The notes below the pieces were generated by a model, which was given only the letters and a program-made list of their open reading frames with translations, was not told where the DNA came from and did no database searches. A DNA stretch of 29,704 bases from a virus. The DNA is taken from IMG/VR virus record IMGVR_UViG_3300025860_000058, positions 1 to 29,704 of that record, one strand, 5' to 3'. Position numbers and translations under genes: made by a program. Shown one piece after another: positions 3,946-7,995 of the stretch; position 1 is the first letter of the stretch; the number at the start of each line of letters is the position of its first letter.

Positions 3946-4434
3946 ATGGCAGTATTAGACCCAAACGAAATATTTTATACAGCATTTGAACCGAAACAAC
4001 AAAACAGGTTTATATTGTATGTAGATGGAATCCCTTCATACCAAATTAAAGGTATGGGAGCTGTTTCATTAACTCAAGGTACAGTTCAGTTGAACCATAT
4101 TAACGTTGCAAGATACGTTAAAGGTAAAACACTTTGGAACACAATTCAAATGACGTTATTTGATCCAATTACTCCAAGTGGTGCTCAAGCATGTATGGAA
4201 TGGGTTAGATTACACCATGAGTCAGTAACGGGTAGAGATGGTTATAGTGATTTCTATAAAAAGGATTTAACTATGAACGTATTAGGACCTGTAGGAGATA
4301 TCGTTTCAGAATGGATTATCAAAGGGGCTATGATTACTGAAGCTAACTTTGGAGATTATAACTGGGATAATGAAAGTGCTGCTGTAGAACTACAATTAAC
4401 AGTACAACCAGATTACTGTATCTTAAATTTCTAA
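3946..4434 (+). CDS. Tail tube protein, T4 gp19-like
   Basis: The protein has 162 residues, almost the same as T4 gp19 (163), and forms the hexameric inner tube through which DNA passes. Recognisable segments are EPKQQNRFILYVDGIPSYQI at ~15-34, the VKGKTLWNTIQMTLFDPITPSGAQ stretch in the middle, and the terminal LQLTVQPDYCILNF, all typical of gp19-like tube subunits. It lies directly after the sheath gene and before a strong terminator, so sheath and tube form a high-expression unit, each with its own promoter motif. Confidence 0.95.
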   Translation: MAVLDPNEIFYTAFEPKQQNRFILYVDGIPSYQIKGMGAVSLTQGTVQLNHINVARYVKGKTLWNTIQMTLFDPITPSGAQACMEWVRLHHESVTGRDGYSDFYKKDLTMNVLGPVGDIVSEWIIKGAMITEANFGDYNWDNESAAVELQLTVQPDYCILNF

Positions 4435-4535: not shown

Positions 4536-5267
4536 ATGAGTGAATTTAAATTTCCAACCGAAGAAGTAGAATTACCATCTAAAGGTTTAATATATTCTAA
4601 AGACAATCCCCTATCAAGTGGTAAAGTAGAAGTTAAATATATGACTGCTAAGGAAGAGGATATTCTTTCCAACCAATCCTTTATTCAAAAGGGAGTAGTA
4701 TTAGAAAAATTATTACAATCTGTAATTATAAATAAGGATATTAAACTTGATGATTTAATTGTTGGTGATAAAAATGCGCTTCTAATTGCTACTCGTATAT
4801 TAGGATATGGTAAGGATTATGATGTTGAAGTTAAAGGACAAAATTATACCTTAGATATGTCAACTTTAGAAAATAAAGAATTTGATGAATCTGAATTTGA
4901 AGCAGGCAAAAATGAATTTAGTTTTACCACCCCAGCAACTGGTACAGTTTTAACTTATCAATTAGCTACGGGTAAATTAGAAAAACAAATAGATCGAGAA
5001 TTAGCAGGTCTTAAAAAAATTAACAAAGAAAACTCCTCAGAACTTACTACAAGATTAAAATATCTAATTACATCTGTAGATGGTAATGAAGAAAAAAAAG
5101 AAATTAGAGAATTTGTAGATAATAGATTCTTAGCAAGGGATTCTAGAGCATTTAGAGATCATATTGCCTCTACTCAACCCGATGTAAACTTATCCTATAT
5201 CTTGGATAATGGAGAGGAGGTGACCATACCAATTGGTCTAAACTTTTTTTGGCCTGACTATAACTAA
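4536..5267 (+). CDS. T4 gp26-like baseplate/tail assembly protein (PF12322-type), probable frameshift donor
   Basis: The protein has 243 residues. Diagnostic segments are LPSKGLIY (13-20), VKYMTAKEEDIL (33-44) and VGDKNALLIATRILGYG (76-92), characteristic of the T4 gp26 'base plate protein' family. The C-terminus is FFWPDYN. In T4, gene 26 is followed by 51 and then hub genes; here a short ORF in the +1 frame follows, then the tape measure. That is the arrangement of G/GT-type tail assembly chaperones. A T7 run at 5244-5250 lies inside the only 26-base window where both frames are open, so ribosomes could continue into the next ORF. The assembly role is inferred from family and position. Confidence 0.85.
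   Translation: MSEFKFPTEEVELPSKGLIYSKDNPLSSGKVEVKYMTAKEEDILSNQSFIQKGVVLEKLLQSVIINKDIKLDDLIVGDKNALLIATRILGYGKDYDVEVKGQNYTLDMSTLENKEFDESEFEAGKNEFSFTTPATGTVLTYQLATGKLEKQIDRELAGLKKINKENSSELTTRLKYLITSVDGNEEKKEIREFVDNRFLARDSRAFRDHIASTQPDVNLSYILDNGEEVTIPIGLNFFWPDYN
5244..5250 (+). other. Candidate programmed frameshift site (T7 run)
   Basis: The zero frame reads AAC TTT TTT TGG. The downstream ORF frame is +1 (equivalently -2) and is open only from 5242, after a TAA at 5239-5241; the zero frame stops at 5265-5267. Any shift must therefore happen in this 26-base window, and the T7 run is the obvious slip site. A -1 slip would hit TGA at 5255. The joined product would continue after FF with GLTITNAPEARLNLFK into the downstream ORF. 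A small hairpin (TGCC/GGCA, 5268-5280) lies 17 bases downstream. Confidence 0.6.
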
Positions 5268-5298
5268 TGCCCCTGAGGCACGTTTAAATCTTTTTAAA

Positions 5299-5550
5299 AT
5301 GATTCACCAAATACTATTTCATAGTAAAGGTGGATATGATTATCCCTCTGTTTATAATATGCCTATTTGGTTAAGAAAATTCACTTACTCAGAAATAAAA
5401 GATTTTTATGCTGAAGAGAAAAAATCATACGAAAATGCCAAAAGTGGAGGTAAAGGAACTAAAAATCTAATTAATGCTGACGGTAAAGTTAATACCCCTG
5501 CATTTACCGAAGCATCTAAACCCTATAGAGGTAAAACAAGTTATAAGTAA
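5299..5550 (+). CDS. Frameshift-extension ORF of the gp26-like gene (tail assembly chaperone C-terminal part; T4 gp51 position)
   Basis: From the first ATG it has 83 residues, with a core YDYPSVYNMPIWLRKFTYSE at ~14-33 and a basic, Gly/Lys-rich tail. The reading frame stays open upstream to 5242, and that upstream part reads as plausible protein (NAPEARLNLFK). It is also richer in G+C than normal spacers here. There is no ribosome-binding site or promoter motif before the ATG. I therefore think it is made mainly as a fusion to the gp26-like protein by ribosomal frameshifting, as in lambda G/GT, rather than alone. Separate translation from 5299 remains possible. It lies immediately before the tape measure gene, which fits a chaperone. 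Confidence 0.7.
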   Translation: MIHQILFHSKGGYDYPSVYNMPIWLRKFTYSEIKDFYAEEKKSYENAKSGGKGTKNLINADGKVNTPAFTEASKPYRGKTSYK

Positions 5551-5574: not shown

Positions 5575-7995
5575 GTGTCTAAAAAACAAGAAGAAACAGC
5601 TAAAACTATAAAGGAATTAATAGCGGATCAAAATAGGCTATTTAAAGAACAACTTCGTATTGTTAAAGAACAAGCGGGTATTGAATCTGACTTATTATCT
5701 GATCAACAAGATATTTCTAATGTTATTAAAGACCAGATAACCAATTTAAAGTTTCAAAGAACAGAAAAGTCTTTACTTAGAAAAATTACTAATGATATAA
5801 ATAAAATCTCCCAAGAATCCTATTCTATAGGAAAAAGACAATTAGGGGTAGATAAACAAAGTGAAATTTTTAGTAAACAAAAAGTTAGTTTAGAACAAAA
5901 AATTAGACTTTTAAAACAACAACAAGCTAAGTTTGGTAAAAGTCAAAATGAATTAGACCAAGATATAGCACAAACAATTAAACTACAAGTTGATGAAGCT
6001 ACTAAATTAAAATTGCAAATAGATGGTATAGTAGAATCTTCACAAAGAATTAAAGATAATTTTGGAGTTAAAACATTTGGAAATTTAGCTACTGCCGTAA
6101 AATCCGTTCCAGGAATAACAGCTTTTTCTGCCCCTTTTGAGGCTGCATCTGAGGCAGCTTTAAATACCTCTCAAGATATAGAACATTCTCTTAAAACTGG
6201 AGAGGGTTTAACTAAAGATATGGTTAAAAAGCTTGGTTTAGCCGATAAATTAAAATCAAAGTCTGGAGAGACCCTAGCAGGTTCAGCTGCTTCTAAAAAA
6301 TTCGATAAACTAGGTAAACCTGATGGTAAAAAATTACTAGGTGTTATTGATAGAAAAGGATTTATGTCAGCTATGTCTGGTATTAAATCACTAGCTAAAT
6401 CCTTAAAAGCCGCCTTAGCTCCTGCAGTTTTACTAGCTGAACTATTAAAGGCTGTAATTGCTTCAGATGCAGCAGCAGGTGAAATGGCTAAGAGTATGAA
6501 CATGACATATGCCGACTCTGTAAGAACCAGAGCTGAACTTACCCAAATGGCTAGTTCGCAGTTAGATATAACTGATATGTCTAAAGGTCATGCTGTTACT
6601 ACAAAAGGTTTACAAGAAACCCTTTTAGTTGTCAATAAAACTCTTGGTACAGGTACAATGTTAAGTGAGGATATGCTAGTTCAGTTTACTCAAATGAGAA
6701 AAATGGCTGGGTTTACTAATGAAGAGCTAATGGGTATTGCTTCTATTTCATTAGCTACTGGAAAAGATATGGAGACCATTACAGGTGAATTTATGGCTCA
6801 AGCTACCATTTCAGCATCCCAAAACGGAGTACTTTTAAATGAAAAAGACTTATTAAAAGATATAGGAAAGGTATCAGCTGCTACTACATTATCATTTGGT
6901 AAAAACCCGGCATTAATAGCTGAGGCTGTAGCTACAGCTAAGTCCTTAGGTATGGAATTAGATAAAGTAGATGCCATAGCAAATAGTTTACTAGATTTTG
7001 AAAGTTCTATATCATCAGAATTAGAAGCTGAATTGTTATTAGGAAAAGATATTAATTTAGAAAAAGCAAGACAAGCAGCTTTAAATAATGATTTAGCAAC
7101 AGTAGCAAAAGAAATATCTAACCAAATAGGTGATTCTGCAGAATTTTCTAAGATGAACAGAATACAACAGGAAGCCTTAGCTAAATCTGTTGGTATGAAT
7201 AGAGAAGATTTAGCAAAAACCTTATACGTACAAGAACAATTAGTAGGTGCTACAGGTAAACAAGCAGAAGAAAAAGAAAAATTAATTAACGCCAGTATAG
7301 AGGCAATAGGATTAGAAGCAACCCAGAAAAAATTAGCAGACGAGGGAGTTGATGGTTTAAAAAACCAACAAAGTCAAGCAGAAAGGCTTGCTAATACAAT
7401 AGATAAATTAAAAGAAGTATTTGTAACTTTAGCAGAACCTATTTTAGCTGTGGGGATGGCATTGACTCCATTAATTGAAGGTATAGGATTTATAGTTAGT
7501 GGTATAATGCATGTATCATCTTTAATTGGGGGATTTCTTGGAAAACTGAAAGAAATGGGAGCACTGGGTACAATTGTAGGTGGGATATTTGCTGTTTTAG
7601 CCGCCGCCTTAGCATATGGAGCTTTAGCTTGGATTCCTGTTGTAGGACCTGTTCTAGGTCTAGCAGCAGGAGCAGCTATAATGTCTGCATTTTATAACGC
7701 TTCTTCAGAGGCAGAAAGTGTAGGTGATATGTTTTCCTCCTCAGGTAGGACTATGGTTTCACCAGCAGAAGGAGGATTATTTGAACTATCAAAGAATGAT
7801 GAATTTGCTGCTGCACCGGGATTAGGACAAATGTTAGCAGGAGGAAATACTTCACCTAATTCACAACCAGAAACAGTACAAAATAACACAGTTGTTGAAA
7901 GTAAAACAGATATGAGTACAACAAATGCCCTATTAGAAAAAATATTTAAGAAGACACCAGAAATGTCTCCTTTAGGTATGTACGAAGTACAATAA
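5575..7995 (+). CDS. Tail tape measure protein
   Basis: The protein has 806 residues. The first ~160 are long Lys/Gln/Glu-rich helices (coiled coil), the middle is alanine-rich helical, and residues ~617-705 are strongly hydrophobic (ALTPLIEGIGFIVSGIM, GTIVGGIFAVLAAALAYGAL, VVGPVLGLAAGAAIM). This is the expected layout for a protein that sets tail length and crosses the host membrane during DNA delivery. The C-terminal region (GGLFELSKNDEFAAAPG) is common in tape measures. It follows the G/GT-like pair, the canonical position. The start is GTG: in-frame stops lie at 5560-5565 and the next Met is about 200 residues in, so GTG (or ATT just before it) must be used. Confidence 0.88.
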   Translation: MSKKQEETAKTIKELIADQNRLFKEQLRIVKEQAGIESDLLSDQQDISNVIKDQITNLKFQRTEKSLLRKITNDINKISQESYSIGKRQLGVDKQSEIFSKQKVSLEQKIRLLKQQQAKFGKSQNELDQDIAQTIKLQVDEATKLKLQIDGIVESSQRIKDNFGVKTFGNLATAVKSVPGITAFSAPFEAASEAALNTSQDIEHSLKTGEGLTKDMVKKLGLADKLKSKSGETLAGSAASKKFDKLGKPDGKKLLGVIDRKGFMSAMSGIKSLAKSLKAALAPAVLLAELLKAVIASDAAAGEMAKSMNMTYADSVRTRAELTQMASSQLDITDMSKGHAVTTKGLQETLLVVNKTLGTGTMLSEDMLVQFTQMRKMAGFTNEELMGIASISLATGKDMETITGEFMAQATISASQNGVLLNEKDLLKDIGKVSAATTLSFGKNPALIAEAVATAKSLGMELDKVDAIANSLLDFESSISSELEAELLLGKDINLEKARQAALNNDLATVAKEISNQIGDSAEFSKMNRIQQEALAKSVGMNREDLAKTLYVQEQLVGATGKQAEEKEKLINASIEAIGLEATQKKLADEGVDGLKNQQSQAERLANTIDKLKEVFVTLAEPILAVGMALTPLIEGIGFIVSGIMHVSSLIGGFLGKLKEMGALGTIVGGIFAVLAAALAYGALAWIPVVGPVLGLAAGAAIMSAFYNASSEAESVGDMFSSSGRTMVSPAEGGLFELSKNDEFAAAPGLGQMLAGGNTSPNSQPETVQNNTVVESKTDMSTTNALLEKIFKKTPEMSPLGMYEVQ

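Follow-up and report, generated by a model that had tools for sequence, protein, structure and literature searches.

Organization of the tail assembly chaperone locus

In the 29,704-nucleotide stretch of viral DNA that we analyzed (the window), two overlapping open reading frames lie between a tail tube gene and a tape measure gene (Table 1). The gene order is identical in phage immuto, an isolated, completely sequenced Flavobacterium phage whose annotation lists a tail tape measure protein at the place of our tape measure gene. Relative to the upstream ORF, the downstream one is shifted by +1 (equivalent to –2); it opens at 5242, immediately after a TAA at 5239–5241, and its first ATG comes at 5299. 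The overlap with the upstream frame contains a run of seven Ts at 5244–5250 and ends at the TAA at 5265–5267. We verified all of these coordinates, and the placement of the pair just before the tape measure, which begins at 5575; most of them had formed the core of an original prediction that a programmed +1/–2 frameshift joins the two frames. The prediction had also described the overlap and spacer as richer in G+C than other spacers; positions 5242–5298 do have a higher G+C content (35.1%) than the window (31.3%), but the difference is small. Translation across a +1 slip gives a fusion of 337 aa, TAC-NC.

Table 1. Features of the locus, with positions given in window coordinates
Feature	Position	Strand	Details
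Tail tube gene, gp19-like, preceding the pair	3946–4434	+	PF06841 E 2e-4 (under the curated cut-off); phrog_4542 E 2e-22
TAC-N, gp26-like tail assembly chaperone	4536–5267	+	243 aa without a shift; C-terminus ...NFFWPDYN*
SD-like element GAGGAGGTG	5214–5222 (AGGAGG core 5215–5220)	+	Candidate stimulator, from anti-SD energy
TAC-C, +1-frame extension (GLTITNAPEARLNLFK...)	5242–5550	+	99 codons past the slip; translation and alignment of 51 relatives
Slip site C-TTT-TTT-T	5243–5250	+	Proposed: P-site UUU 5247–5249 re-pairs +1 on UUU 5248–5250
A-site UGG, then CCT GAC	5250–5258	+	Double-read: W-P-D in frame 0, G-L-T in the +1 frame
Frame-0 stop TAA	5265–5267	+	Terminates the short product
ATG within TAC-C	5299–5301	+	Not the start of a separate gene; unconserved in relatives
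Tape measure gene, following the pair	5575–7995	+	GTG start, 806 aa; assigned by position

Family and predicted fold of the two halves

The gene belongs to the T4 gp26/gp51 family of tail assembly chaperones (TACs). TAC-N matches phrog_150 (E 9e-7), the PHROG that T4 gp26 and gp51 also match (7e-71 and 3e-84), which bears out the gp26-like identity given to the upstream ORF. On the phrog_150 profile gp26 covers positions 14–235 and gp51 covers 13–280; the additional 45 positions of gp51 at the C end are what is expected of a long form. The downstream ORF had been taken for a gene in the position of gp51, but we find that it is instead a C-terminal extension (TAC-C), and that it is the fused product that corresponds to T4 gp51. 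At the level of sequence, the long form consists of the N domain with a C extension that a frameshift would add. When we compared profiles, the match between the fusion and the single T4 gp51 sequence was not significant, though it was co-linear across the junction, and the comparison with the single T4 gp26 sequence was also not significant. A chaperone role for TAC-N and TAC-NC is predicted from this family membership.

We modelled TAC-N and TAC-C as separate halves. The AlphaFold2 model of TAC-N has a mean pLDDT of 90.7 and structural matches in BFVD to T4-like baseplate hub assembly proteins; its best PDB fold is the HK97 TAC (2ob9), a weak match (Z 4.3 over 94 residues, 8% identity). The second PDB match, also weak (Z 4.0, rmsd 6.1), is 5ir0_B, ORF19 of a Vibrio cholerae PICI-like element, which may be a phage satellite's mimic of a chaperone. 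The TAC-C model is a small helical domain with a pLDDT of about 90 over residues 11–60.

Conservation of the frame relation in relatives

To collect relatives, we scanned viral contigs, in which 388 stretches encode relatives of the N protein and 80 loci were kept, and added scans seeded from isolated or published phages that tblastn had identified. The two halves were located with separate HMMs. Ten further loci were too short, and the 261 alignable copies include the window and one duplicate of it; the non-redundant set contains 214 genes. The original prediction had proposed an alignment of relatives as a check, and 254 of the 261 copies have an open overlap and encode the C domain in the +1 frame. 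The C domain is in the other frame in six copies, one copy has no C-domain match, and the HMM search found no single-frame fusion of N and C among the 261. Since 254 copies keep the +1 frame open and shuffling the window yields 0.00 expected occurrences of the 16-mer CTTTTTTTGGCCTGAC, the arrangement is more than chance. TAC-N and TAC-C each occur once per searched genome, including the complete genome of immuto, indicating that there is no T4-style second gene that supplies the long form.

Codon constraint at the slip site

In the window the site reads AAC-TTT-TTT-TGG-CCT (5241–5255). The sequence TTT TTT TGG CCT is present in 152 of the 214 distinct genes, and nearly all others keep YTT-T before TGG or TAC: we found TTT CTT TGG CCT in 30 genes (phage immuto among them), TTC TTT TGG CCT in 13, TTT CTA TGG CCT in four, CTT TTT TGG CCT in three and TTT TTT TAC CCT in three. 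Nearly all +1 relatives therefore have a slip codon of the YUU-U type, either TTT-T or CTT-T. In the four genes with TTT CTA TGG (L183, L193, L206 and L207), the second codon offers poor +1 re-pairing, and the slip may fall one codon earlier, on UUU-C.

To quantify constraint on these codons, we counted synonymous differences in 84 independent pairs of genes. Across the five codons at 5241–5255 there were 19 differences as compared to 84.0 expected (z –8.8), which is the lowest value of any five-codon window in the gene. The two Phe codons alone have z values of –3.7 and –3.4, and the CCT codon, retained in 152 of 158 representatives, has a z value of –7.4. Double coding accounts for the invariance of TGG CCT GAC and places the +1 frame under protein constraint from the first codon past the U-run.

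Direction of the proposed shift and alternative explanations

The original prediction had left the direction as +1 or –2. A –2 ribosomal shift of the kind used by Mu, on the same U-run, would reach the same frame with one extra Phe. In the window and the 152 T7 genes, the P-site Phe-tRNA could find pairing two bases upstream, and the first Phe codon, too, is constrained to TTT (z –3.7). A +1 slip confined to the P site would not call for this constraint, but an E-site effect might account for it. In contrast, relatives with TTT CTT TGG, TTC TTT TGG or TTT CTT TAC keep the frame relation and cannot re-pair at –2. In the TTT CTT TGG genes of the immuto clade, +1 movement re-pairs CUU to UUU as in prfB, while at –2 the Leu-tRNA would face UUC; TTC TTT TGG permits re-pairing at +1 only. 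Re-pairing two bases upstream is thus not available in every member of the family, as a Mu-type shift would demand. The interrupted sites make +1 the parsimonious direction for the family, and we consider –2 improbable.

We also considered that the locus encodes two separate proteins, with the downstream ORF initiating alone by reinitiation at ATG 5299 or at a non-AUG codon. That ATG is present in the window behind an A/T-rich leader that resembles other starts of this phage, and two relatives (L263 and L267) carry a separate C ORF that starts with ATG. However, the ATG is not conserved: 62% of relatives have no ATG, GTG or TTG within the first 20 codons past the slip, and in 14 of 205 the C ORF has no ATG at all. 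In addition, the alignment contains a conserved FGLT...LF segment upstream of ATG 5299, and the constraint falls on the slip codons, not on the ATG. A conserved start at 5299 had been named as evidence that would speak against a frameshift; relatives keep no start there, and we regard independent initiation as very unlikely. Two specific versions of it were rejected. Initiation at a conserved +1-frame CTG fails because this codon is CTA in Mel-JY01, and an internal start served by the upstream SD-like motif fails because the codons at the right distance are a mixture of ATA, ATT, ATC, GTG and CTG. In immuto, the deposited gene in this region, a 36-aa hypothetical gene (L082 4839–4949; MW353175 150651–150761), starts inside the conserved TAC-C domain and is a TAC-C fragment that was mis-called as a gene.

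RNA polymerase slippage on the T7 run, which would produce mRNAs in the second frame, is just as unlikely. Other bacterial genes are known to undergo slippage on A/T runs, and the T7 run is such a homopolymer; however, seven U is short for such slippage, and the frame relation is unchanged in the 30 distinct genes with T3CT3 (immuto included) and in the 13 with TTCT4. These interrupted runs speak against homopolymer errors as well. Homopolymer runs are error-prone, but a sequencing or assembly error that breaks one continuous frame has a negligible probability, since the frame relation recurs in more than 200 distinct genes from many metagenomes and from isolated phages, some without a homopolymer. 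A miscounted run of Ts had been named as a second way for the prediction to fail; the T7 run is present in many separately assembled contigs (L001–L010 and others), and the isolated phage L082 has the same frame relation with an interrupted run, CTTTCTTTGG, which excludes homopolymer error.

Taken together, the frame relation in 254 of 261 copies, the frozen slip codons and the unconserved ATG support the predicted programmed frameshift between the gp26-like protein and the downstream ORF. Judged from sequence, programmed +1 ribosomal frameshifting almost certainly connects the ORF at 4536–5267 with the next ORF, and it is very probably how this T4-like phage expresses its tail assembly chaperone locus.

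A Shine–Dalgarno-like element upstream of the slip site

The codons GGA GAG GAG GTG precede the slip site and place an AGGAGG 23 nt before the U-run and 26 nt before the P-site codon. This SD-like element had no part in the original prediction. We found that GAGGAGGTG is the strongest anti-SD 9-mer on the plus strand of the window (–13.0 kcal/mol). In the 158 representatives, the best-placed 9-mer has a mean anti-SD energy of –7.7 kcal/mol as compared to –0.2 for background, and the regional minimum is –9.8 as compared to –6.4 for synonymous shuffles (p 6e-24, a value that ignores shared ancestry). AGGAGG itself is present in 45% of representatives and in 0.4% of other stretches. About 85% of representatives carry the element at the aligned position; it is the sole such place in the scanned part of the gene, and it persists through differing amino acids (EE, GG, KE, RR), indicating conservation beyond the protein sequence.

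The 20-mers before 29 gene starts of the window pair worse with the anti-SD than random sequences do (–0.23 as compared to –2.22). The phage's genes thus seem to initiate without SDs, which would fit a phage of Bacteroidia; the closest isolated relative infects Flavobacterium. Ribosomes of Bacteroidia sequester their anti-SD (PMC9976891).

The spacing of the element differs from that of known stimulators. SD stimulators of –1 shifts lie about 10–14 nt from the slip, and the SD stimulator of the prfB +1 shift lies 3 nt from it (PMC12421855), so the ordinary stimulator geometry does not fit here. Nearer to the slip (codons –6 to –1), we found only a weak G-rich sequence (–3.8 as compared to –3.4 when shuffled). 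The motif is missing from the –1 lineage described below, from the three CTT TTT TGG representatives and from some other +1 genes, and it is present in L263 and L267, which have no usable overlap; any frameshift-specific role is therefore putative. The element probably tunes ribosome speed or frame keeping. More tentatively, and with the odds against it, the locus could be a two-part +1 cassette in which an SD-like sequence more than 20 nt upstream acts via the anti-SD of elongating ribosomes. If so, the cassette would work in SD-avoiding phages of Bacteroidia-type hosts that normally hide the anti-SD, and the ratio of long to short chaperone could sense the state of the ribosome, for example ribosomes lacking bS21. 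The records of two relatives, L126 and L143, encode ribosomal protein bS21 (PF01165, in L281 and L282). A phage bS21 was found in these two of the 10 relatives' records that were searched and in neither the window nor immuto. This distribution does not support a general link to the SD-like motif.

RNA structures considered

In 61 genes, no region downstream of the slip has the consistently higher stability, relative to shuffles, that a 3' stimulatory structure would show (mean z about –0.2 to –0.9). The small hairpin that had been pointed out past the overlap does exist, with a 4-bp stem (TGCC-CCTGA-GGCA, 5268–5280), but it is broken in many relatives (for example L012 and L016), and we rejected it as a stimulator because it is not conserved. 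Between the SD-like motif and the slip, a region with a GACCA...TGGTC hairpin (CCNATNGG) folds better than mononucleotide shuffles; this candidate was rejected because its inner pairs lack covariation. Pairing of the purine tract with the U-run was also rejected as weak (–5.9 as compared to –5.2), set beside anti-SD pairing (–9.0 as compared to –5.2).

Variant relatives

Relatives of the versions found in Streptococcus and huge phages are few. The homologue in Streptococcus phage GXN1 keeps the +1 overlap, at TTC TTT CGT. The huge phage LR756511 (L086) and the huge-phage-like contigs L169, L170 and L171 carry TTT TTC TTC at the equivalent point of the protein (slip-aligned site 4700 or 2700) and encode the C region in the –1 frame, suggesting an apparent switch to –1 frameshifting at U UUU UUC. 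The C-domain matches of these four to an independent HMM are weak (E 6e-4 for L171, 1e-3 for L086 and 0.12 for L169 and L170). In L263 and L267 (at about 2700), where the C domain matches with E values of 2e-27 and 1e-26, a C ORF with its own ATG starts a few bases past the N stop and there is no usable overlap. The fusion is thus not universal, and in these two the link between N and C may have been lost or solved otherwise.

Proposed mechanism and comparison with known systems

We propose that most ribosomes would read AAC UUU UUU UGG CCU GAC UAU AAC UAA and release the short TAC-N of 243 aa, while a minority would slip forward at the U-run with UGG waiting in the A site. In the latter, the peptidyl-tRNA-Phe would move from UUU at 5247–5249 to UUU at 5248–5250, and reading would resume at GGC CUG ACU to give the TAC-NC of 337 aa. 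We infer from the sequence the occurrence of the shift, its rate, the ratio of its products and the +1 movement of the tRNA. If the locus works like lambda G/GT, the tape measure protein would be covered by many copies of TAC-N and few of TAC-NC, with the C domain serving to recruit tail tube subunits.

The lambda gpG/gpGT pair likewise consists of two overlapping frames before the tape measure, with a presumably rare long form and a C domain presumed, as here, to bind the tube protein; however, lambda shifts –1, and the T4-like contractile-tail family described here is a different sequence family. T4 gp26 and gp51 belong to the same PHROG as TAC-N, exist as short and long forms and adjoin the tape measure. 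In T4, 26 and 51 are separate, divergently oriented genes, whereas here there is one gene with a proposed frameshift.

Frameshifted TACs have already been published in T4-like phages, and the kind of system is therefore known. Frameshifting was reportedly described in several T4-like TAC groups by Vladimirov, Gautam and Davidson in 2022. According to two later papers, T4-like TACs have separate short and long genes in some phages and poly-T –1 signals in others (PMC10885494, PMC12846349, citing Vladimirov et al. 2022). The poly-T signals are cited there as –1 (PMC12846349), in contrast to the +1 downstream frame here. Vandenendeviridae and Andersonviridae (phage Adele, PMC12846349) likewise encode TAC-N and TAC-NC upstream of the tape measure, and their poly-T slip is conserved; however, it is GTTTTT and its direction is –1 (PMC12846349). 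In the accessible literature on T4-like TACs, we found no mention of an SD-like element upstream of the slip. The apparently new features are the +1 direction, the near-invariant U7GGCCU site and the strong SD-like AGGAGG 23 nt upstream of the U-run.

The closest parallel in slip mechanism is prfB (release factor 2), where CUU UGA C likewise has a YUU-U codon, a peptidyl-tRNA that moves +1 onto UUU and an SD-like motif upstream. The immuto-type CUU-UGG-C is one base from the prfB CUU-UGA-C, and poly-T variants of prfB exist (PMC12421855). The two differ in that the A site holds a stop codon in prfB and here a sense codon, UGG in nearly all genes and UAC in a few, and in that the SD-like motif is 3 nt from the slip codon in prfB and 26 nt from the P-site codon here.

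These findings correct the annotation of an abundant aquatic group of T4-related phages; immuto, whose deposited genome we examined, is annotated without the long chaperone. They also provide, for comparison with prfB, a +1 site that involves a sense codon and is conserved across hundreds of phages. A distant SD-like element in SD-independent genomes poses a testable puzzle about the role of the anti-SD during elongation in Bacteroidia. Finally, a single TAC family appears to reach its long form by +1 frameshifting in most lineages and, at the same protein position, apparently by –1 frameshifting (U UUU UUC) or with a separate ATG elsewhere.
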